Assembly (NCBI GenBank): GCA_019116245.1 | Contig: DXCC01000031.1 | Span: 1 to 64,000, forward strand | Length of the DNA stretch: 64,000 nt | Direction: 5' to 3' | DNA from: Candidatus Tidjanibacter faecipullorum | Lineage (GTDB): Bacteria; Bacteroidota; Bacteroidia; Bacteroidales; Rikenellaceae | Shown: piece after piece, positions 5,812-54,001 of the stretch | Layout: each line of letters begins with the position of its first letter | Position numbering within the stretch: the first letter of the stretch is position 1 | The notes under the pieces: model-generated | What the model saw: only the letters and a program-made list of their open reading frames with translations | What the model was told of the DNA's origin: nothing | Database searches by the model: none | Program-made: the position numbers and the translations under genes

Positions 5812-6546
5812 TCAGCGGAGCTTGAAGTCCTGTCCCAGGTAGACTTTGCGGACCTGTTCGTCGTTGGCAAGGTCTTCGGCGGAACCGGCCTTCAGCACCC
5901 GACCCTCGAAAAGCAGGTAGGTGCGGTCCGTGATGCTGAGCGTCTCGTGAACGTTGTGGTCGGTGATGATGACGCCGATGTTCTTGTCCTTCAGCGTGCG
6001 GACAATGCTCTGGATATCCTCCACGGCAATGGGGTCCACACCGGCGAAGGGCTCGTCGAGCAGGATGAATTTCGGGTTGATGGAGACGGCGCGGGCAATC
6101 TCGGTGCGGCGCCGCTCGCCGCCGGAGAGCTGGATACCCTTGCTCTTGCGGACCTTCTGCAGGCGGAACTCCTCGATCAGATTCTCGACCCGTTCGCGCT
6201 GGTATTCTTTCGAGTAGTTGGTCATTTCGAGTACCGAGCGGATGTTGTCCTCCACGCTCAGGTGGCGGAATACGGAGGCCTCCTGGGCCAGGTAGCCCAC
6301 GCCGAGCTGGGCGCGCTTGTAGACGGGGAGTTTGGTGATGTCCTGTGTCTGGCCCTCCTCTTCGAGGAAAATCTGGCCTTCGTTGGGCTTGATCAGCCCG
6401 ACGATCATGTAGAAGGTCGTGGTCTTGCCGGCGCCGTTGGGACCGAGCAGACCGACGATCTCGCCCTGGTTGACGTCGATGGATACGTGGTTGACGACGG
6501 TGCGGGTTTTGTATTTCTTGACCAGTCCGGAGGTGTACAGTCTCAT
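5812..6546 (-). CDS. lptB: LPS export ABC transporter ATPase LptB
   Basis: LptB powers extraction of lipopolysaccharide from the inner membrane with LptFG. The protein has Walker A GPNGAGKTT, Q-loop region, ABC signature LSGGERRR, Walker B FILLDEP and the H-loop in ITDHNVHET; these residues and the compact length fit LptB rather than a generic ABC ATPase. I prefer the ATG at 6546 (244 residues, MRLYTSGLVKKYK) over the track start at 6573, because a promoter -7 box (TAACTTTG) lies at 6578-6571 and would place the transcript start downstream of 6573. It heads the aroA-aroC-yceD-rpmF-plsX-fabH run. Confidence 0.93.
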   Translation of the reverse strand: MRLYTSGLVKKYKTRTVVNHVSIDVNQGEIVGLLGPNGAGKTTTFYMIVGLIKPNEGQIFLEEEGQTQDITKLPVYKRAQLGVGYLAQEASVFRHLSVEDNIRSVLEMTNYSKEYQRERVENLIEEFRLQKVRKSKGIQLSGGERRRTEIARAVSINPKFILLDEPFAGVDPIAVEDIQSIVRTLKDKNIGVIITDHNVHETLSITDRTYLLFEGRVLKAGSAEDLANDEQVRKVYLGQDFKLR

Positions 6547-6570
6547 GGAAATTCTGAAAAAACTTTTGGA

Positions 6571-6578
6571 CAAAGTTA
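6571..6578 (-). promoter_or_regulatory. Putative -7 box for lptB (TAACTTTG)
   Basis: Matches the Bacteroidetes TAnnTTTG -7 consensus 25 bases before the lptB ATG. No clear TTTG -33 box is found at the usual distance, so this is only moderately supported. Confidence 0.45.
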
Positions 6579-6707
6579 GGTAAATATTGGAAAAAGGTTA
6601 TATCTTTATGTTATGAAAGATTACTGGGTCCAGTAGATTTCTGCTGCGGCGTCTGCCGGAGCGGCCGCGAGGCACTCATCACGATCCAACGAGGAAGCGA
6701 GGAGAAC

Positions 6708-8903
<2,196 letters not shown>

Positions 8904-29293: not shown

Positions 29294-29317
29294 AGTTAGT
29301 TGAAGTTAGTTGAAGTG
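29294..29317. repeat. 10-bp tandem direct repeat in the aqpZ leader
   Basis: AGTTAGTTGA occurs twice in tandem followed by AGTG (2.4 copies), directly upstream of the aqpZ start codon. Copy number could vary by slippage. Confidence 0.75.
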
Positions 29318-29770
29318 AATGAGGTATACTTAACTCTTTAAAATTAACCATAAAAAACGGAACAAACAAATTCCCGGGATAAATCCCGGATGTGAGCAGG
29401 GGGGAATACGCATATGGAGGAGGCACAGGAACTGCCTTGCGGAACGAGGACGGGTGGGAGCGTGTCCGGTCCTGCCGGGGGTGCAATCGGATCGTCCGGT
29501 GGCAGGTTGAGTGTACTGTTCGACGGTCGAACGGCAGAAGTCCGGGGGTGCCGGCAGGAACAGGTATGGAACCGAATAGCCTCCGTTCATGCCGGTATGC
29601 CGGTTGTTGGCAGCCATGAAACGACAGCAGGGGCCGGTTCGAGTAGGCAAGGAAAGCGAGAAAAGGCTCCACCTGCACGAACTGTTGGCTGTCGTAACAA
29701 AATCTTCATCGAATCGACACGAATGCGTTGCGTTGCGCCGCTTTTTTTGTCGCCGAAAATCATAGTGAAC
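29318..29770. other. Intergenic stretch between aqpZ and the porin gene
   Basis: About 450 bases with divergent promoters expected. A perfect 7-bp inverted repeat (CCGGGAT-AA-ATCCCGG) lies at 29374-29389. No exact TAnnTTTG box was found for either gene. The ORFs in the track here (29392-29619, the 5' part of 29414-31138, 29330-29935) look like shadows. Confidence 0.55.
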
Positions 29771-31138
29771 ATGAAACATCTTTTGCCCGTATGCTTTTGT
29801 CTGGCGCTGAGTTTGACGGCCAACGGCCAAACGCGCAAAGAGACGGCCTACGATGACGGATCGAAAAAATGGCCGGCCAAAGCCTATTTTCAGGGCGGCA
29901 AACTCCATTTCAAATCCGCCAACGACAAATTCCATCTTTGGTTCGACAACCGCATCTATATTGACGGTGCCTATTACGATCCCACGACGGACGTCAGCAC
30001 GCTGCAGTCGAAACCCAACAAGGATCTCGAAACGGACGACGGCCAGTTCCGGTTTGACAATGGCTTCGTCATCCGGCGCGCCCGGTTTGCCGTCAAGGCG
30101 ACGCTCTATGAGCGCTGGTTCGCCGAGCTGGATCTCGATTTTGCCTACAACGAGGTGGAGATCAAGGATATGTTTCTCGGTTATCAGTTCAACGACCGCT
30201 TTTCGATCAAGGCAGGAAACTTCAAGGAGCCCATGTCGATGGAACGCATGACCTCGTCGAAATACCTAACCTCCATGGAGCGCCCCATGGTGATCGACAT
30301 GTTTGCCGGCGGCCGTCGCCTTGGTGTGGCCGCAACCGGGTGGGGTAAGCATTGGTGGGCCTCGGCCGGCCTGTTCGGTCGCGAGGTGGACATCATCCAG
30401 AAGGAGAAAAACCGGGGCAGTGACGGCTACGGTGTATCCGGGCGCGTGGCCTGGTCGCCCATTCTGCGCGACGACTGGACCCTCCATATCGGTGGATATG
30501 CCTCCTGGCGCCGCCCCGATGCTACCGGTACCCGGGACCGGATGGTCGAGTTCCGGACCTTCCCCGAAAGCCGCGTCGATCGCCGGCGGTTCGTGCGGGC
30601 CGAAATTGAGAATGTCAACAACTATGCGGTGCTCGGCCTCGAACTGGCCGCCCGGTGGAACAAGCTGCTCCTGTACGGTGAGTATGTCTATACGACCCTG
30701 TCGCGGTATGGCTATGAGAACGGCAGCAGGGTGCCCCTCAAAAACGCCGTATTCAACGGCTGGTATGTGACCGCTTCCTACATGATCCTCGGCCAAAACC
30801 GGCAGTATGCGCCCGAGGATGCCGAATTCGGCCCTATGAATGTCCGGAAGAAGGGTGGAAACCTCGAGTTGGCAGCCCGCGTAAGCACCGTGAACCTCAA
30901 TGATTTCAATGATCCGACTGCCTATATCACCGGCGGCAAGGCCATCAACTACAGCGCATCGCTCAACTGGTATCCCGTGCGGAACGTTCTGGTCGGACTG
31001 AACTACACCTTTGTGGACAACGACAAGTATGCCGATGACAAGGGGCATATTACCTGCAACGGCAGGCCGCTCAGCCAGAGTCTGCGGAATGGGTTGGACT
31101 TCAGTGTCTTCCAGATGCGGCTGATGGTTTCGTTCTAA
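29771..31138 (+). CDS. OprP/OprO-type outer-membrane porin
   Basis: The ATG at 29771 gives a signal peptide (MKHLLPVCFCLALSLTANGQ) and 455 residues; the track's start at 29414 has no support. The body is beta-rich with alternating aromatic strands and ends in Phe (MRLMVSF), as expected for an outer-membrane barrel. Sequence such as FRFDNGFVIRRARFAVKATLYERWFAELDLDF and the EPMSMERMTSSKYLT region matches the phosphate-selective porin O/P family. Its partners downstream (lamin-tail lipoprotein and phosphatase) suggest uptake of phosphate or phosphate-containing ligands, but the arginine ladder of OprP was not checked, so selectivity is inference. Confidence 0.86.
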   Translation: MKHLLPVCFCLALSLTANGQTRKETAYDDGSKKWPAKAYFQGGKLHFKSANDKFHLWFDNRIYIDGAYYDPTTDVSTLQSKPNKDLETDDGQFRFDNGFVIRRARFAVKATLYERWFAELDLDFAYNEVEIKDMFLGYQFNDRFSIKAGNFKEPMSMERMTSSKYLTSMERPMVIDMFAGGRRLGVAATGWGKHWWASAGLFGREVDIIQKEKNRGSDGYGVSGRVAWSPILRDDWTLHIGGYASWRRPDATGTRDRMVEFRTFPESRVDRRRFVRAEIENVNNYAVLGLELAARWNKLLLYGEYVYTTLSRYGYENGSRVPLKNAVFNGWYVTASYMILGQNRQYAPEDAEFGPMNVRKKGGNLELAARVSTVNLNDFNDPTAYITGGKAINYSASLNWYPVRNVLVGLNYTFVDNDKYADDKGHITCNGRPLSQSLRNGLDFSVFQMRLMVSF

Positions 31139-31167
31139 GTGAAAATTTTTCCAAAACACATAGCATC

Positions 31168-32649
31168 ATGAAAATTGCAAATTGGTTTATGGCCCTGACG
31201 GCTGTCGCCATGCTGGGCGTGGGCTGCAAAACCGACAAGGAACCGGTGATTCCCCCGGTGTCGGACGGTGACTATACCGGTGTCGTACTGAATGAAATCT
31301 GTGGCGGTGCGGCCGACAACAAGGATGACGACTGGGTAGAAATTTACAATATGTCGGATGTCACCGTCGATCTGACCGGCGTTCAGCTGATGAAGATCGA
31401 CGAAGACAATCTTTCCGAAATCCTGTGCACCCTGTTGACCGGTACGCAGATTGCTCCCCGCGGCTATCTGGTGGTTTCCAAGCAGAGCGGCGCTTTCTCG
31501 GCCGGTATTTCCAATTCCAAGAAGGTGTCGATCGTGCTGATCACGCCCTCGGGCGAGAATGAAATCGACCGTTTCGATCGCGATGCGGCCGTCGGCGAGG
31601 GACAGAGCCACGAACTGGGCGGAAGTTATGCCCGCATTCCCGACGGCACGGGGGCGTGGACGATTGTGGCCCGGAGTACGCAGGGTGCTGCCAACAGCAA
31701 TGAAGCGCCTCAGCCCGACGACACCGACTATTCGGGTCTGGTGCTCAATGAAGTGTGCGGCGGTGCGGTTGACAATGACGAGGACGACTGGATCGAACTC
31801 TACAACAACGGTACGGAAACCCTGGATCTGGCCGGTGTGAAGATTCTCAAGACCGATGAGGAGGGGGTTACGGAAACCATCGCCACGCTGCCCGAAGGAA
31901 CGACGGTCGAGGCCGGCGGTTACCGCGTGTTCGGCAAACTTGACGGTCAGCTGTCCAAAAAGATTTCCAACTCCAAACAGGTGGTCATTGCCGTGATGAC
32001 GCCGGCCGGTGAGCCGATCGACGCTTTTGACCGTGACGCGGAGGTGGGCACCGATCAGGGGCATGAACTGGGCGGAAGCTATGCCCGCATTCCCGATGTG
32101 ACGGGCGGCTGGGCCGTTGTGGCACAGAGCACCCGCGGTGCGGCCAATACGGACGCGACGGTCGATCCCGATCCGACTCCTTCCTCGCCCTATGAGGGTT
32201 TGGCTCTCAACGAACTGAACGGCAACGACAAGTTCATCGAACTGTACAACGGGTCCGCGAGCGACATGGATATTTCGGGTGTGCAGCTGCGCAAGGATGA
32301 CGAGGAGATCATCTATGTGGCTCCGCAGGGGACGACGATTCCGGCCGGCAGTTTCCTGTCGCTGGCAGGCAATGCCGAGGATTATGCGGACGGCTTCACC
32401 AGCGGTCTGTCGGCCGACAAGTCGGTGATGATCCAGCTGCTCGATCCGGAGGGCGTGCAACTCGATGTGTTCAAGAACCTGAGTGCTTCGCAGGGCGAAG
32501 TCTGGGGAGAGGATGACGGCCTGTACAACGGTAAGAAGCCCGAAAAGGTGTCGTTCGGCCGTTTCCCCGATGGCGTGGGCGACTGGTATCTGACGGCTCC
32601 GACCTCCGGGGCGGCGAACGGTGAAGGAACGGAAAAGATCGAGTGGTAA
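31168..32649 (+). CDS. Lipoprotein with three lamin-tail domains
   Basis: A 493-residue exported lipoprotein: signal sequence with lipobox LGVGC (Cys at ~25), then three tandem lamin-tail (LTD) domains opening with YTGVVLNEICGG, YSGLVLNEVCGG and YEGLALNELNG, each containing a W/F-IELYN strand. The first two share SHELGGSYARIPD-type ends; the last ends FGRFPDGVGDWYLT. LTDs are small immunoglobulin-like folds found on secreted nucleases and phosphatases and may bind ligands or proteins. It begins 29 bases after the porin and its TAA overlaps the phosphatase ATG, indicating one operon. Molecular role is not known. Confidence 0.85.
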   Translation: MKIANWFMALTAVAMLGVGCKTDKEPVIPPVSDGDYTGVVLNEICGGAADNKDDDWVEIYNMSDVTVDLTGVQLMKIDEDNLSEILCTLLTGTQIAPRGYLVVSKQSGAFSAGISNSKKVSIVLITPSGENEIDRFDRDAAVGEGQSHELGGSYARIPDGTGAWTIVARSTQGAANSNEAPQPDDTDYSGLVLNEVCGGAVDNDEDDWIELYNNGTETLDLAGVKILKTDEEGVTETIATLPEGTTVEAGGYRVFGKLDGQLSKKISNSKQVVIAVMTPAGEPIDAFDRDAEVGTDQGHELGGSYARIPDVTGGWAVVAQSTRGAANTDATVDPDPTPSSPYEGLALNELNGNDKFIELYNGSASDMDISGVQLRKDDEEIIYVAPQGTTIPAGSFLSLAGNAEDYADGFTSGLSADKSVMIQLLDPEGVQLDVFKNLSASQGEVWGEDDGLYNGKKPEKVSFGRFPDGVGDWYLTAPTSGAANGEGTEKIEW

Positions 32650-33716
32650 TGAAACGGTTGTTGCTGACGCTGACCGTGATCCTGTTGGGCTTGCCGATGG
32701 TGCATGCCCAACAGATCCGTTTTGTATTCATGTCCGATCCGCACTATGGCCTGGAGCGCGAGTTCCGGGGACGGGAGGCTCGGGCCGAAGAGGTGAACCG
32801 GGTGATGGCCGGCGCAGTAGCTGCTCTGCCCGGCGAACGGCTGCCCGACGACGGGGGTGTCGGGGCGGGCGAGGCGATCGGGCCGCTCGACTTTGTCGTG
32901 TGCGGTGGCGACATAGCCAATCGTATGGAAGACGGCGTGCAGCCGGCTGCGGAGTCGTGGCGGGAGTTTGCCGCCACCTGGCTGGCGCCCGACATGCCCC
33001 GCGTGTGGATGCTGGCGGGCAACCACGACCTGTCGAATGCTATCGGCTATGTACGGCCCATGACGCCCGAACGGGATGCAACCTGTGCCGCAGAGATCTT
33101 CAACCGCACCATGCATCCCGATACGCTGCGCACGGCCGCCACGTTCGATTATGCGACCGACAAGGTCCACTATGTGGTGGATGTGTCGGGCGTCCGGTTC
33201 GTTTTTGCCGGCATGTGGCCCGATACGCCCACGCGGCGCTGGCTGGATGAAGCACTGGCCGGCAGCGATCGTCCCTGCCTGCTCTTCACCCATTCGGAGC
33301 CGGATGCCGAGGCCAAACAGTTCATCAACCCCTACGGCGACCACTCGATCAACGCTACGGACCGTTTCGAAAACTTGATCTGCGATACCTGCAGCGTGGC
33401 TCGCGGTGGAACGCCCCGCAGGGAGTATGGTCAGCTGGCTGCTTTTCTGGCCGGGCATCCGACGATCGTCGCCTGGTTTCACGGCAATACCAACTACAAC
33501 GAATTCTATACCTGGGAGGGGCCGGATCACAAGGTGGCGGTGCCCGTTTTCCGGGTCGATTCCTCCATGAAGGGCGAAATATCCGGTACGGACGAGTCCA
33601 TGCTCTCCTTCCAGGTGGTGTGCATCGACGTTGCCACCCGCCGGATGACGGTGCGCGAATATTTCTGGAACCGCACACCGGGCGAGTGGGGAGCATCCGC
33701 CACCGTGACGTTATAG
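32649..33716 (+). CDS. Exported calcineurin-like metallophosphoesterase
   Basis: The ATG at 32649 overlaps the previous stop (TAATG). A signal peptide (LLLTLTVILLGLPMVHAQ) is followed by a calcineurin-like phosphoesterase of 355 residues total with metal-binding motifs DPHYG, GGDIAN, AGNHDLSN, FTHSEPD and a terminal WFHGNTN, where the last usually reads GHxH (here HGN, a possible change at a metal ligand). It is expected to cleave phosphate esters in the periplasm or at the surface. Its coupling to the lamin-tail lipoprotein and an OprP-type porin points to phosphate scavenging. Confidence 0.85.
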   Translation: MKRLLLTLTVILLGLPMVHAQQIRFVFMSDPHYGLEREFRGREARAEEVNRVMAGAVAALPGERLPDDGGVGAGEAIGPLDFVVCGGDIANRMEDGVQPAAESWREFAATWLAPDMPRVWMLAGNHDLSNAIGYVRPMTPERDATCAAEIFNRTMHPDTLRTAATFDYATDKVHYVVDVSGVRFVFAGMWPDTPTRRWLDEALAGSDRPCLLFTHSEPDAEAKQFINPYGDHSINATDRFENLICDTCSVARGGTPRREYGQLAAFLAGHPTIVAWFHGNTNYNEFYTWEGPDHKVAVPVFRVDSSMKGEISGTDESMLSFQVVCIDVATRRMTVREYFWNRTPGEWGASATVTL

Positions 33717-34336: not shown

Positions 34337-34358
34337 AATAGTTTGAAATCAAACTATT
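34337..34358. promoter_or_regulatory. Palindromic operator upstream of marR
   Basis: A perfect inverted repeat with 10-bp arms (AATAGTTTGA and TCAAACTATT) and a 2-base spacer covers the -33 box and most of the promoter spacer. This is the size and placement of MarR-family operators and predicts autorepression of the marR-tolC-emrAB operon. Confidence 0.8.
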
Positions 34359-34372
34359 TTCAAGTATCTTTG
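34342..34372 (+). promoter_or_regulatory. Promoter of the marR-efflux operon
   Basis: TTTG (34342-34345), 19 bases, TATCTTTG (34365-34372): complete Bacteroidetes promoter, 28 bases before the marR ATG; its -33 box lies inside the palindrome. Confidence 0.82.
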
Positions 34373-34400: not shown

Positions 34401-34834
34401 ATGACCTGTTCCGTTCCCGAATTGTTTCATCAGATTCTGAAAGTGAGGGCCGCTTTCCGGTCCGCCATGGCCAAGAGCCTGAAGGCGCACGACATTGACT
34501 TGTCGTTCGAGATGCTGCAGATTCTGCACAAGCTCCGGCAGCGGCAGGGGGTGACCCAGCAGGCACTGGCCGTCAGTACGGTGCGGGACAAGGCCAGCCT
34601 GACCAGTCTGCTTAACAACATGGAGCAGCGGGGACTGGTGGAGCGGCGCACGCTGGCCGAGGATGGGCGCAGCAAACTGATTTTTTGAGCCGGCAGGGTG
34701 AGGAGCTGGCCCGGCAGGTACAGCCGCTGGTGGATGAGGTGTACGGCTATGCCGAGGCAAAGGTGAATGGAGAGGCCGTGGCAGCTGCCATCGCCGTATT
34801 GGAGGAGGTGTATGAGACGTTGGAGCGCTATTAG
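34401..34834 (+). pseudogene. MarR family regulator, frameshifted in a T run
   Basis: The first 95 codons encode a typical MarR N-terminus and winged helix (KASLTSLLNNMEQRGLVERR, then EDGRSKLIF) and stop at TGA 34686-34688. Moving to the next frame at the run of six T's restores a clean C-terminus: LSRQGEELARQVQPLVDEVYGYAEA and ending VLEEVYETLERY at TAG 34832. With a seventh T the gene would encode 144 residues, normal for MarR. The C-terminal dimerisation helices are lost in the sequence as given. The full-length frame overlaps the tolC start by 23 bases. Confidence 0.88.
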
Positions 34835-36131
34835 TCTGGGCCTGTTGCTGGGACTCTGTACGTCCGGAGCGGTCCAGGCGCAGCCGGCGGACACCATTCG
34901 GCTGACCGTCGAGCAGCTCTTCGACCGGGGCACCTCCTGCAACCTGCAGCTGCAGGCCGACCTGCTCAAGGAGCGCATGGCCGAGGAGCGTCGCAAGGAT
35001 GCCCGCAAGCAGGCCTATCCGGATGTGGAAGTCGAACTGGCCGGCGGCGTGATCGGGCAGCCGGTGGTTTTCCTCCACGGCTTGACCGATCCGACCTATC
35101 CGGAGACGCCGGACTGGTCGCAGGATTACGGCATCGTGTTCCGGCAGCCCATCTACAAGTCCGGCAAGATTACGCTCGGCATCCAGAAGGCCGAACTGGA
35201 GCGGCAGATCGCCGTGCTGGAAACGGCCGAGGATGATGCCTCGGTCAAACTGGGGCTGTTGCAGCAGTATCTGAACCTTTTTTGCCTCTACAAACAGCAG
35301 GAGCTGCTGTCCTACAAGATCCGGGAGTCGGAACGGCGGCTGATCGACATCCGGCAGATGAAGCGCGAGGGGCTTATCACCAACAACGACGTGCTGCGCA
35401 GCGAGCTGCAGCTGACCGACGACCAGCTGGCGCTCACGGAGGTGAACGACGGCATTCTGCTGGTCTCCCAGCAGCTGGCCATTCTGCTGGCGCTGGACGA
35501 GGAGGCGGTCATCCGTCCCGACGAACAGTTTCTCGACCATGTGGTGCCGGAGGTGGAGGACTACGAACGGTATGTGTCGGCCGCCTATGCTGCCAATCCC
35601 GCCATGCAGGTGCTCGGCAAACGGATCGAACTTTCGCGCAACAACATCCGGTATGTCCGCTCGGATAATCTGCCTTCGCTCTATCTGGAGGGCGGCAACA
35701 CCTTTGCCCGGCCGATTACGCGCACGATGGTGGACCTGTACAACAATGCGTGGCGGATCGGCCTGACGCTGAACATTCCCGTGTCGGCCTTCTACAAGAA
35801 CCGGCACCGGCGGGCCGAGGCCGAGCAGCAGCTCCGGCTGGCGATCAACCAGGAGGAGCAGGGGCGGCAGCAGATCCGCATGCAGATCCGGACCGCCTTT
35901 CTGAAACACAAGGAGGCGCTCGAGCGGGCCGCCCGCATGAAACTCTCCATCGAACAGGCGCGGGAGAACTACCGCATCATGGAGAACCGCTACATGAACC
36001 AGCTGGTGATTCTGACCGACCTGCTGGATGCCAGTTCGCTCTACATGAATGCCGAGCTGCAGGCCATCACGGCCCGGACACAGGTCATCTATACCTACTA
36101 CGAATTGCAGAAGATCTGCGGAAATCTTTAG
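34812..36131 (+). CDS. TolC family outer-membrane efflux protein
   Basis: The ATG at 34812 (15 codons into the track ORF) gives a signal peptide (ISLGLLLGLCTSGAVQAQ) and a 439-residue OEP protein with two repeats (DTIRLTVEQLFDRG at the start; LTLNIPVSAFYKNRHRR at the second barrel strand). It is the first intact gene after the broken marR and the start of a complete EmrAB-TolC type pump. Its start lies within the marR 3' end in another frame, so its translation may depend on ribosomes finishing full-length marR. Confidence 0.92.
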   Translation: MRRWSAISLGLLLGLCTSGAVQAQPADTIRLTVEQLFDRGTSCNLQLQADLLKERMAEERRKDARKQAYPDVEVELAGGVIGQPVVFLHGLTDPTYPETPDWSQDYGIVFRQPIYKSGKITLGIQKAELERQIAVLETAEDDASVKLGLLQQYLNLFCLYKQQELLSYKIRESERRLIDIRQMKREGLITNNDVLRSELQLTDDQLALTEVNDGILLVSQQLAILLALDEEAVIRPDEQFLDHVVPEVEDYERYVSAAYAANPAMQVLGKRIELSRNNIRYVRSDNLPSLYLEGGNTFARPITRTMVDLYNNAWRIGLTLNIPVSAFYKNRHRRAEAEQQLRLAINQEEQGRQQIRMQIRTAFLKHKEALERAARMKLSIEQARENYRIMENRYMNQLVILTDLLDASSLYMNAELQAITARTQVIYTYYELQKICGNL

Positions 36132-36143
36132 GAAGAACTCGCT

Positions 36144-37214
36144 ATGGCAAGAACGCATAACAAACGATACATCGCGCTGAAACGGCAACGCAACCGGAAC
36201 ATCATCCTCAATACCGTGTGTGCGGTGTTCTTTCTGGCCGGTGCGCTTTGGTTCGCCCGCTTTTTCCTGAACCATCTGCGCTACGAAATGACCAACAACG
36301 CCTACGTCGATCAGTACATCGTACCGGTCAATATCCGGGTGTCGGGGTTCATTCGCGAGATCTGTTTCTCGGAACACCAGTATGTCCACCGGGGCGACAC
36401 GCTGCTGGTGTTGGATGACCGGGAGTACAAGATTCGCCTGCAGGAGGCCGTGGCCGCGCTGATGGATGCCGAGAATACGAAGGAGGTGCTCCATTCGGTG
36501 GTCAATACGGCGCGGATCAACGTGGCCGTGCAGGACGCCAACATGGCGGAGGCCCAGGCCCAGCTTTGGCAGACGGAGCAAGACTACCACCGCTACGAGC
36601 GGCTGCTGGCTGACGAGGCGGTTTCTCGGCAGCAGTTCGAGCAGATGAAGGCCTCCTACGATGCCTCGCAGGCGCGTTTCGAGGCGCTGAAGCAGCAGCG
36701 TGAGACGGCCCGCTCGCAGAGCGACGAGGCGGCCAAGCGGGCGGCGGGTGCCGATGCGACCATTCTGCATTGCGAGGCCGAACGGGACATGGCCGAACTG
36801 AATCTCTCCTACACGGTGGTGACCGCCCCTTTCGACGGATATATGGGGCGGCGTTCGCTCGAGGAGGGACAGTACATCCAGGCGGGGCAGAGCATCTCCT
36901 ATCTGGTGCGCGAGAATCAGAAATGGATTACGGCCAACTACAAGGAGACCCAGATCGGAAACATCTACCTCGGACAGAAAGTAAGAATCAAGGTGGATGC
37001 CTACAAGGACAAGAAAATCATGGGGATCGTGACGGCCATCTCGGAGGCGACCGGATCGAAATACGCCCTGATTCCGACGGACAATTCGGCCGGCAACTTC
37101 GTGAAGATCCAGCAGCGCATTCCGGTGCGGATCGACCTGGTGGATGTGGAAAAGGAGGATCTCGACCTGCTCCGGGCCGGCATGATGGTTGAGGTGGCGG
37201 CGATCAAGCGATGA
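36144..37214 (+). CDS. EmrA-like membrane fusion protein (HlyD family)
   Basis: A 356-residue adaptor with a basic N-terminus, one membrane helix (NIILNTVCAVFFLAGALWFARFF), an N-terminal lipoyl strand (PVNIRVSGFIREICFSE), a long coiled coil (~90-180) and a beta-barrel (MGRRSLEEGQYIQAGQ). The DNxYV-type motif (NNAYVDQYIVPV) is typical of EmrA. It links the MFS pump to the TolC channel. The gene overlaps emrB by ATGA. Confidence 0.92.
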   Translation: MARTHNKRYIALKRQRNRNIILNTVCAVFFLAGALWFARFFLNHLRYEMTNNAYVDQYIVPVNIRVSGFIREICFSEHQYVHRGDTLLVLDDREYKIRLQEAVAALMDAENTKEVLHSVVNTARINVAVQDANMAEAQAQLWQTEQDYHRYERLLADEAVSRQQFEQMKASYDASQARFEALKQQRETARSQSDEAAKRAAGADATILHCEAERDMAELNLSYTVVTAPFDGYMGRRSLEEGQYIQAGQSISYLVRENQKWITANYKETQIGNIYLGQKVRIKVDAYKDKKIMGIVTAISEATGSKYALIPTDNSAGNFVKIQQRIPVRIDLVDVEKEDLDLLRAGMMVEVAAIKR

Positions 37215-38806
37215 AACGGTACGTGCTGAATGTCCCGGTCCGGCCGTGGGTGCCGCAGTGGGTGGCGCTGGGGATGATGTTTCTCATCCTGCTCTCCGTA
37301 CTGATGATCAACGGTGCCTATGTGGGCAGCAGTATTGATGTGTCCGGAGCGCTGGGCACCACCCGCGAGGATATCATGATGGCCTACTATGCCTGCTCGG
37401 TCGGTATGGTGGTGGCCAATCCATTTGTGCAGAAAATCAGGCAGATGCTGACATCCAAATCGCTGCTGCTGGCCGATATGGGGGCGCAGGTGGTTCTGGC
37501 ACTGATCTGTGCACGGACCGATGCCGTGGAGATCATCATTCTGTGCAGTTTCCTGATCGGCGTGCTCAAAACGTTTCTGTTGCTGGAGTTCATCATTCTG
37601 ATGACCCCGTTCTTCAGTCCGGGCAACGTGCGCAGCGAATGTTACTCGTGGTTCTATCCGATCGTGTTCGGAGGCGGCCAGCTGTCGGTACCGCTGACGG
37701 CCTGGCTGGCCAATACCTACCATTGGCAGTATACCTACTATTTTGTCATCGTCCTGTTGCTGCTGACCATGGCCTGCGTGGTTGTCTTCTTCCACAACGG
37801 CCGGTTACCGCGCATGACCGTGCTGCGGGAAATCAACTACCGGAGCCCCTTTCTGCTCAGCGTGGCTTTTCTGATGATCGTCTATGTGGGTACCTACGGA
37901 AAGAATGCCGACTGGTTTGCCAACCGCTACATCACGCTGTTTGCGGTGCTCGGTGCGGTGACGCTGCTGCTGTTCATCGTCAGTCAGCGCTATGCACGCC
38001 ATCCGTATGTCAGTTTCCAGCCCTTCCGCCATATCAATTCGGTGGTGGGGTATCTGTTCACGTTTCTCTGCCTTTTTCTCAACAGCGACACCACGCTTGT
38101 CAACAGTTATGTGCAAAACATTCTGAATGTGGATAATGTGCATGCCAATCTCCTGGGATTGTTTACCATTCCGGGGTATGTGATTGCCGGCGTGATTGCC
38201 TTCTGGTGGTTTCGCTGGCAGCGGTGGCGCTTCCGCTATCTGATTGCGGCCGCCACGGGGCTGTTTGCCTGCTATTTCGCCTCCCTGTACTGGGGTATCG
38301 GACCCGACAGCCGCTATGAGGCCCTGTTCCTGCCCATGATTGTCAAGGGGATGGGAATGATGCTTTGCGTGATTGCCTTCGGCGTCTACACGGCCGAAAA
38401 ACTGGATGCCCGCTACCTGGTCTCCAACACCTTCTTCATGATTTCCGTGCGGTCGTTGCTGACGCCGGTGTTTGCCTATTCGTTCTGCAACAACATGCTC
38501 TATCAGGTGCAGCAGCGGAGCATGGGGCGGCTGGTCGAACACCTGACGCTGACCGATCCCCAGGCCGTGCAGCGTTATGCCGAACTGATGCAGGGCGGCA
38601 TGGGGCAGGGTTATCAACAGGCGGTGCAGATGGCCAACAGCAACCTGTATGCGCTGCTCCAGACCCAGGGACTGCTGTTGAGCCTGAAGATTCTGTTTGG
38701 CTATCTGCTGCTGGCGGCCGTGGTGCTGGCAGTGGCTTCGGCCCTGATTCCGTTCCACCAGACCGTTCGGGTGCCTGTGGTGCGCGCCGGAACCGACATG
38801 GCGTGA
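37211..38806 (+). CDS. EmrB-like MFS drug exporter
   Basis: A 531-residue MFS protein with 12-14 predicted membrane helices. Its partner genes (TolC and EmrA types) and the 4-base overlap place it in the DHA2/EmrB group, although the classic DHA2 motif (LDxTIVNVALP) is weak here: the first helix reads LMINGAYVGSSIDVSGALG. The second half is less conserved. Substrates cannot be predicted. It is the last gene of the marR operon. Confidence 0.87.
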   Translation: MKRYVLNVPVRPWVPQWVALGMMFLILLSVLMINGAYVGSSIDVSGALGTTREDIMMAYYACSVGMVVANPFVQKIRQMLTSKSLLLADMGAQVVLALICARTDAVEIIILCSFLIGVLKTFLLLEFIILMTPFFSPGNVRSECYSWFYPIVFGGGQLSVPLTAWLANTYHWQYTYYFVIVLLLLTMACVVVFFHNGRLPRMTVLREINYRSPFLLSVAFLMIVYVGTYGKNADWFANRYITLFAVLGAVTLLLFIVSQRYARHPYVSFQPFRHINSVVGYLFTFLCLFLNSDTTLVNSYVQNILNVDNVHANLLGLFTIPGYVIAGVIAFWWFRWQRWRFRYLIAAATGLFACYFASLYWGIGPDSRYEALFLPMIVKGMGMMLCVIAFGVYTAEKLDARYLVSNTFFMISVRSLLTPVFAYSFCNNMLYQVQQRSMGRLVEHLTLTDPQAVQRYAELMQGGMGQGYQQAVQMANSNLYALLQTQGLLLSLKILFGYLLLAAVVLAVASALIPFHQTVRVPVVRAGTDMA

Positions 38807-52588: not shown

Positions 52589-52628
52589 ACGGAGGATGGG
52601 ACACGGTTCCCGTCCTCCGTTTTTTTTT
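52589..52628 (+). terminator. Terminator of the decarboxylase operon
   Basis: ACGGAGGATGGGA/TCCCGTCCTCCGT stem, loop CACGGT, then eight or more T's. Confidence 0.93.
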
Positions 52629-52695
52629 GTGCGTCGGGCGGAATCTGTTGTTATTGCAGGCGCGGAGGATTCTTGCTAAATTTGGAGAAAAGTGT

Positions 52696-54001
52696 ATGAC
52701 AATGCAAAATAGAATGCGGATCGGATGGATGATCCTTTGTGTGGTAGTGACGTTGTTTGGCAGCACAGGCAGGGTAGCGGGACAGACGCCGGCTGATGCG
52801 GAACTGGGTGCGGTGTTGAACGCAGGCGACCTTTGGCTGCTGCGGGAACGGTATCCCGTCTTGAAAGATTCAGTCAGCATGGAGATGCTGCAACTGATTG
52901 CCGAGGCACAGTTGGGGGTCGGTTTTAACCGATTGGAAGAGGCCGAGGCGGTGTTGGATGTGCTGTTGCGGAAATATCAGGAGGAGATGGGCCCGACAAC
53001 AACGCTCAATATGGCTGCCGTCCGGGCGTTTAACTTGTTGAATTTGGGCCATTATGCGGCGGCTGGTGAGATCGGTGCACAACTGGTGGCTGCCCTGGAG
53101 GGGAGTCAGGCGCCCGAGGCGATCTCCGGATTGCGCTTTATAGAACGGGTGGGGCAGGGACTGGCCGATGTGCCGGCTCCCTATCTGGAGCGCCCCGATC
53201 GGGATGTACAGGTGCCGATGAAGGTCATTGCAACCGGACGGGGCCATCACCTGCATATTCCGGTCGAAGTAAATGGCGTGACCAGCGATTTCATTTTTGA
53301 TACCGGGTGCTCGTTCGGCAATTTTGTCACGGAGGAGTATGCCCGGGAGGTGGGGTTGCGGATTGTGGCCGATTCAATTCCCGTGGCCGGGGCACAGGTT
53401 GGCCTGGTAAAACTGGCAACGGCCGATTCGTTGCGGATCGGCGATTTGGTGTACCATCACCCCGTGTTCATGGTGGCTCCTCCGGATCCTGAATTGGATG
53501 CATCTCTGGCCTACGATGGAGTGCTTGGCTTTAATTTTATGCGTGCAGCGCAGGAGATCGTGCTCGATGTCGAGAAGGGGATGTTTGTTTTTCCGGCAGC
53601 GGTCGGTACAGGAACCCCCCAATATGGTGCTGGCATCCAATGTGCCGTATGTACGCATCCGATATGACGGCGAGCCGTTTGACCTGCTGTTCGATTCGGG
53701 AAATGTGAAGACCGATCTGGGGACGGATTTTGCCCGGAGTTTCCCGAAGGCCGTGGCCGGTCTGCCGGAATGTCATGTCCAGCGGGGCGGTTTCGGCGGT
53801 ATGGTCGATCTGAAAGCGGTGACGTTGCCGGAATGGACCTTTACGCTGGCGGGGGTGTCGGTCACGCTGCATGATACGGATGTGTATGAGACGGATCAGA
53901 CCCTTTCGTTCTATTCAGGCTCGTTGGGGTGCGACTGTATCCTGGCTTTTCGCCGGTTGACCCTCAATTACGCGCACATGTATCTGCGCGGCGAGCGGTG
54001 A
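52696..54001 (+). pseudogene. Secreted two-lobed retropepsin-like aspartyl protease, frameshifted in a C run
   Basis: From ATG 52696 the first frame gives a signal peptide, ~150 residues of helical repeats, and a first protease lobe with DTGCS and a closing LGFNFMR, then stops at 53665-53667. The second lobe, starting near 53620 in another frame (SNVPYVRIRYDG, FDSGNVKTDLG, GCDCILAFRRL), runs to TGA at 53999-54001. Removing one C from CCCCCC at 53615-53620 joins them smoothly as GTGTPNMVLASN. In this family both Asp motifs are needed, so the sequence as given should be inactive. Joined, it would encode about 434 residues. Confidence 0.85.

Follow-up and report, generated by a model that had tools for sequence, protein, structure and literature searches.

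Probable recent frameshift loss of the MarR-type repressor of an EmrAB-TolC-like efflux operon in an uncultured Rikenellaceae gut commensal

The repressor gene heading a marR-tolC-emrA-emrB efflux operon of Candidatus Tidjanibacter faecipullorum has probably been inactivated, and lately, by a one-base frameshift in a run of six T's; the operon is otherwise an ordinary, presumably autoregulated one. It lies in the window analysed here, a stretch of 64,000 nucleotides on contig DXCC01000031.1 (C27 in our numbering), whose coordinates are used throughout, and its genes are on the forward strand. The lesion was read from one assembled genome of the species.

The marR gene starts with ATG at 34401 and is open for 95 codons (34401-34688). 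Its stop codon, TGA at 34686-34688, comes directly behind the T6 run at 34681-34686, the point at which the frame is lost, just as the earlier note on this DNA had described. The frame running from 34685 (34685-34834) reads LSRQGEELARQVQPLVDEVYGYAEAKVNGEAVAAAIAVLEEVYETLERY and consists of 49 codons followed by TAG at 34832-34834. When this displaced tail was aligned with 13 full-length MarR proteins that other members of the family encode in the same operon, it matched without gaps over the last 49 residues: the 95-residue part ends at a conserved (V/I)(F/Y), the tail resumes at L(S/T)xxGE, and all sequences end in the same column. A BLASTP comparison of the tail alone with one full-length MarR of the operon family gave E = 4e-7. 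Between the tail and the corresponding segment of the sister species G022 (see below), differences at the three codon positions numbered 10/4/15 (chi-square p = 0.043 against the equal counts expected if there is no selection; dN/dS about 0.29), a pattern typical of protein-coding DNA, and for the N-terminal part the counts were 13/9/33 with a dN/dS of 0.12. Judged by these alignments and substitution patterns, the displaced frame is the real MarR C terminus, which a shift of one frame restores as had been proposed, and both halves were selected as protein for the greater part of the period since the two species diverged. Since the N-terminal part and the tail both bear the mark of purifying selection between the two species, both lesions are recent.

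The 95-residue part keeps the N-terminal helix and the winged helix, and the MarR winged helix-turn-helix was recognized in it by Pfam profiles PF01047 and PF12802 with 41.2 and 40 bits, above the curated cut-offs (24.6 bits for MarR). The C-terminal helices that complete the dimer are absent from the product as written, which ends at residue 95 and leaves 49 C-terminal residues in another frame; here too the earlier reading proved correct. In MarR proteins the C-terminal helices make up most of the dimer interface. Among proteins of solved structure, the best relative of an intact MarR from this operon family was MexR of Pseudomonas aeruginosa (PDB 1LNW, 3MEX; E = 5e-13), a regulator of an RND pump with only distant sequence similarity. 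In the alignment with MexR the break falls at the QLFLTDEG stretch, just ahead of the segment forming the C-terminal helices, and therefore the 95-residue product should be inactive: with its winged helix kept and most of the dimer interface gone, it would be expected neither to dimerize nor to repress.

The three genes downstream of marR are intact. They encode a tolC-like outer membrane efflux protein (34812-36131, 439 aa; Pfam OEP, 152 bits), an emrA-like periplasmic adaptor (36144-37214, 356 aa; NCBIfam EmrA/EmrK TIGR00998, 244 bits against a curated cut-off of 390.8) and an emrB-like DHA2/MFS transporter (37211-38806, 531 aa; Pfam MFS_1, and NCBIfam TIGR00711 with 81.5 bits against a cut-off of 230.2). 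The adjacency and order of the OEP, HlyD/EmrA-like and MFS_1/EmrB-like profiles correspond to the operon layout of an MFS pump of the EmrAB-TolC type and bear out the description of marR as a repressor gene upstream of such a pump; we use the name EmrAB-like, as the EmrA and EmrB subfamily scores are below the NCBI cut-offs. Translation of tolC most likely starts, to judge from the sequence, at the ATG at 34812. It had been suggested that the restored marR frame ends exactly where tolC begins, and this holds in so far as tolC starts inside the 3' end of marR; the junction is not exact, there being an overlap of 23 nt. A tolC start within the marR tail is common to the sister species and the relatives (marR ends over the tolC start in all other 14 operons), with overlaps of 20-23 nt where measured. 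The purine-rich sequence GGAGGAGGT immediately precedes the tolC start; Bacteroidetes rely little on purine-rich sequences ahead of their starts.

Ahead of marR there is a perfect palindrome, AATAGTTTGA-AA-TCAAACTATT (34337-34358), whose 10-nt arms are 100% complementary and whose 22 bases were unique in the genome even when up to 3 mismatches were allowed. It contains a likely -33 promoter element, TTTG (34342-34345, assigned by consensus), which is separated by 19 nt from a likely -7 element, TATCTTTG (34365-34372; TAnnTTTG); we take this arrangement to fit the -33/-7 promoter pattern of Bacteroidetes. The palindrome is nearly identical in the sister species, and in most relatives this position is occupied by a TAGTCAAA..TTTGACTA palindrome, after which the same TATCTTTG comes upstream of marR. 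A palindromic candidate operator near the promoter is a trait of MarR-family systems, and the palindrome found here over the -33 element is likely to be the operator of an autorepressing MarR. As a separate observation, the form of the palindrome is AGTTTGA..TCAAACT in this genome and its sister, and AGTCAAA..TTTGACT in most of the family, a difference accompanied by a change from D-R-R to D-G-R in the wing of MarR. It is possible that the repressor and the operator-like site have co-evolved.

If the intact protein behaved like other members of its family, a MarR dimer on the palindrome would have kept the operon repressed until a ligand freed it, and loss of the repressor would leave operon transcription uncontrolled. 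As to the earlier claim that the pump is constitutively on, the palindrome covers the likely promoter, and thus repressor loss would plausibly leave the pump unrepressed; the claim is reasonable as a predicted effect. With the premature stop, 123 nt separate the end of marR translation from the tolC start, which it formerly overlapped, so that any translational coupling between the two genes would be lost; the net level of the pump, like that of TolC, could go either way.

Our literature search returned nothing on this operon in Rikenellaceae and did return precedents for the loss of such repressors. In EmrR-EmrCAB of Chromobacterium violaceum and emrRCAB of Stenotrophomonas maltophilia a MarR-family repressor is likewise encoded beside a TolC-type gene, emrA and emrB, and loss of the repressor leads to overexpression of the pump, as in the derepression of EmrCAB upon loss of the MarR-type EmrR in C. 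violaceum (PMC6249546). In contrast to these systems, the repressor gene described here heads the operon, overlaps tolC and belongs to another phylum; moreover, the EmrR losses were laboratory deletions or selected mutants (PMC6249546), unlike the natural loss proposed here. The MarR-like pump repressor Rv0678 (MmpR5) of Mycobacterium tuberculosis offers a parallel in the type of lesion, since its frameshifts are frequent, have a hotspot at nucleotides 198-199 and derepress MmpS5-MmpL5, but that pump is of the RND type and, unlike here, within-species selection by drug has been documented (PMC9184757).

A scan of genome collections recovered only one close relative, G022, an uncultured Rikenellaceae bin, which is also the nearest genome with the operon. 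The two genomes agree in gene order across almost all of the window, and their DNA is mostly 82-87% identical there. The marR gene of G022 is 84-86% identical, yet it is truncated as well, at 99 aa, by an in-frame TAG four codons past the position of the stop behind T6. At the T-run site G022 reads ATTTTCCTG and has no T run. By the earlier note's own account, its reading would be undermined if MarR were equally short in close relatives and the frame behind the stop were not conserved; G022 has the equally short product, but its frame is kept. Of its pump genes, tolC is interrupted by an in-frame TGA, emrA has a deletion of 10 bp and emrB is open (locus L020, about 5900-8800); ahead of the operon, the gene for a phosphoesterase is split. 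From this set of lesions the whole operon is decaying in G022, which has lost this repressor in an event of its own, through a nonsense codon, and has lost tolC and emrA as well. The pump genes of Ca. T. faecipullorum are intact, and only for the sister has decay of the entire operon been demonstrated.

Also upstream of the operon, the porin and lamin-tail-domain genes at 29300-33700 of the window are largely missing from G022; by comparison of the two genomes this is a variable stretch flanked by conserved blocks. When about 110 syntenic genes of the two genomes, on stretches of contigs C27 and C25, were scanned in both directions for lesions, nearly all of the other genes were intact and few other credible lesions appeared. 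Several stop flags seemed to stem from ORF starts placed too far upstream or from antisense frames, and the two inspected closely were both over-extended starts. An aspartyl-protease-like gene (Pfam Asp_protease_2; 52627-53998) is frameshifted at a C6 run at 53615, its remainder lying in the next frame; the gene is open in G022 (457 aa).

The lesion could also be a sequencing or assembly slip. The number of T's would then have been read wrongly in a gene that is really intact, or the consensus would have picked up a variant from a minority strain. In marR one base of a homopolymer is affected, purifying selection still shows in the displaced tail, and the second six-base-run frameshift in the window, that at 53615, makes a pattern that would be expected of a homopolymer-prone assembly too. 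The genome (1.86 Mb, 32 contigs, 99.75% complete) is probably a short-read metagenome bin, as the number of contigs and our failure to find a 16S gene in it suggest. Short-read consensus is, on the other hand, seldom wrong at six-base runs. Run-associated lesions numbered 2 in about 110 compared genes, so this genome is not riddled with errors, and 26 of the window's 28 coding runs of at least six bases keep the frame. The independent nonsense codon in the marR of the sister species indicates that this gene does get lost in the lineage. Taking these points together, we regard an assembly artefact as unlikely, though by no means negligible.

Two further readings assign the T run a function. The first is phase variation, which the earlier note had raised: reversible slippage in the run would toggle the repressor, and hence the pump, within the population. 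The break does fall exactly at a homopolymer, and the frame that follows is intact; a reversible frameshift in a short run, the C7 of glpK in M. tuberculosis, is mentioned in PMC9184757. The run is, however, short and private to this genome: a conserved or length-varying run, by which phase variation at homopolymers is recognized, was found at the site neither in the sister nor in 13 relatives, the intact genes of the latter reading TAC CTC, TTC CTG and similar. The sister has lost marR by substitution and not by slippage, and those phase-variable resistance genes of Bacteroidales that are described in PMC8748976 use invertible promoters. With the run confined to one genome and the sister's loss due to a substitution, phase variation is unsupported; it was rejected on present evidence and we consider it very improbable.

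Alternatively, programmed -1 frameshifting or transcriptional slippage might yield full-length MarR from the sequence as written, the conserved tail being in the -1 frame at the T run, which is then followed by a stop. The register at the site (ATT TTT TGA) does not, however, provide a canonical slippery heptamer, the downstream structure is no better than chance (z = 0.38), and the site is not conserved in the sister or the relatives. In addition, the in-frame TAG of the sister could not be bypassed by such frameshifting. Programmed frameshifting was therefore rejected, with register, conservation and fold all against it, and its probability appears to be close to nil.

The distribution of the operon in the family bears on recent inactivation by frameshift, the reading we prefer. 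Apart from Ca. T. faecipullorum and G022, 14 genomes of the family were found to carry all four genes of the operon, and a close tolC occurs in 17 genomes, among which G160 has a tolC-like gene only. In each of these 14 operons the marR gene has its full length, about 146-149 aa for those with a clear start. Of the 16 four-gene operons, 5 carry one or more broken genes: apart from the two described above, emrA has an in-frame stop in G023 (L078) and a frameshift in G171 (L080), with marR intact in both, and tolC is interrupted in G023 (L010) and G210 (L012). The latter two stops, TAG and TAA respectively, are at the same codon, around locus position 2550, even though G023 and G210 belong to different genera; the codon is Q in this window, and the frame is open and conserved behind the stop. 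No stop was seen at this codon in the other 14 close tolC genes. The shared stop may be due to chance parallel decay or to something else, possibly recoding. Within the genus the operon was found in 2 of 23 genomes, G022 being the only congener that has it, and in three congeners the peptidase gene located 3' of the operon adjoins unrelated genes. A search of viral contigs for MarR gave no match. Comparison of these genomes indicates that the operon is dispensable, patchily distributed and often decaying.

Two sister gut species have independently lost the C-terminal half of MarR within four codons of each other, with the winged helix kept, and it is conceivable that the loss was selected, an unrepressed pump or a free DNA-binding fragment being advantageous; we give this only a slim chance. 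The pattern of lesions suggests that selection on the operon as a whole has been relaxed; it does not suggest a switch.

The biology looks like that of ordinary gene decay, with no new switch or mechanism. If real, the lesion would mean that an uncultured gut commensal has lost a pump repressor naturally, in a non-clinical setting, and that its nearest relative has done so independently; the case would illustrate how regulated efflux operons decay in gut Bacteroidales, and which gene goes.
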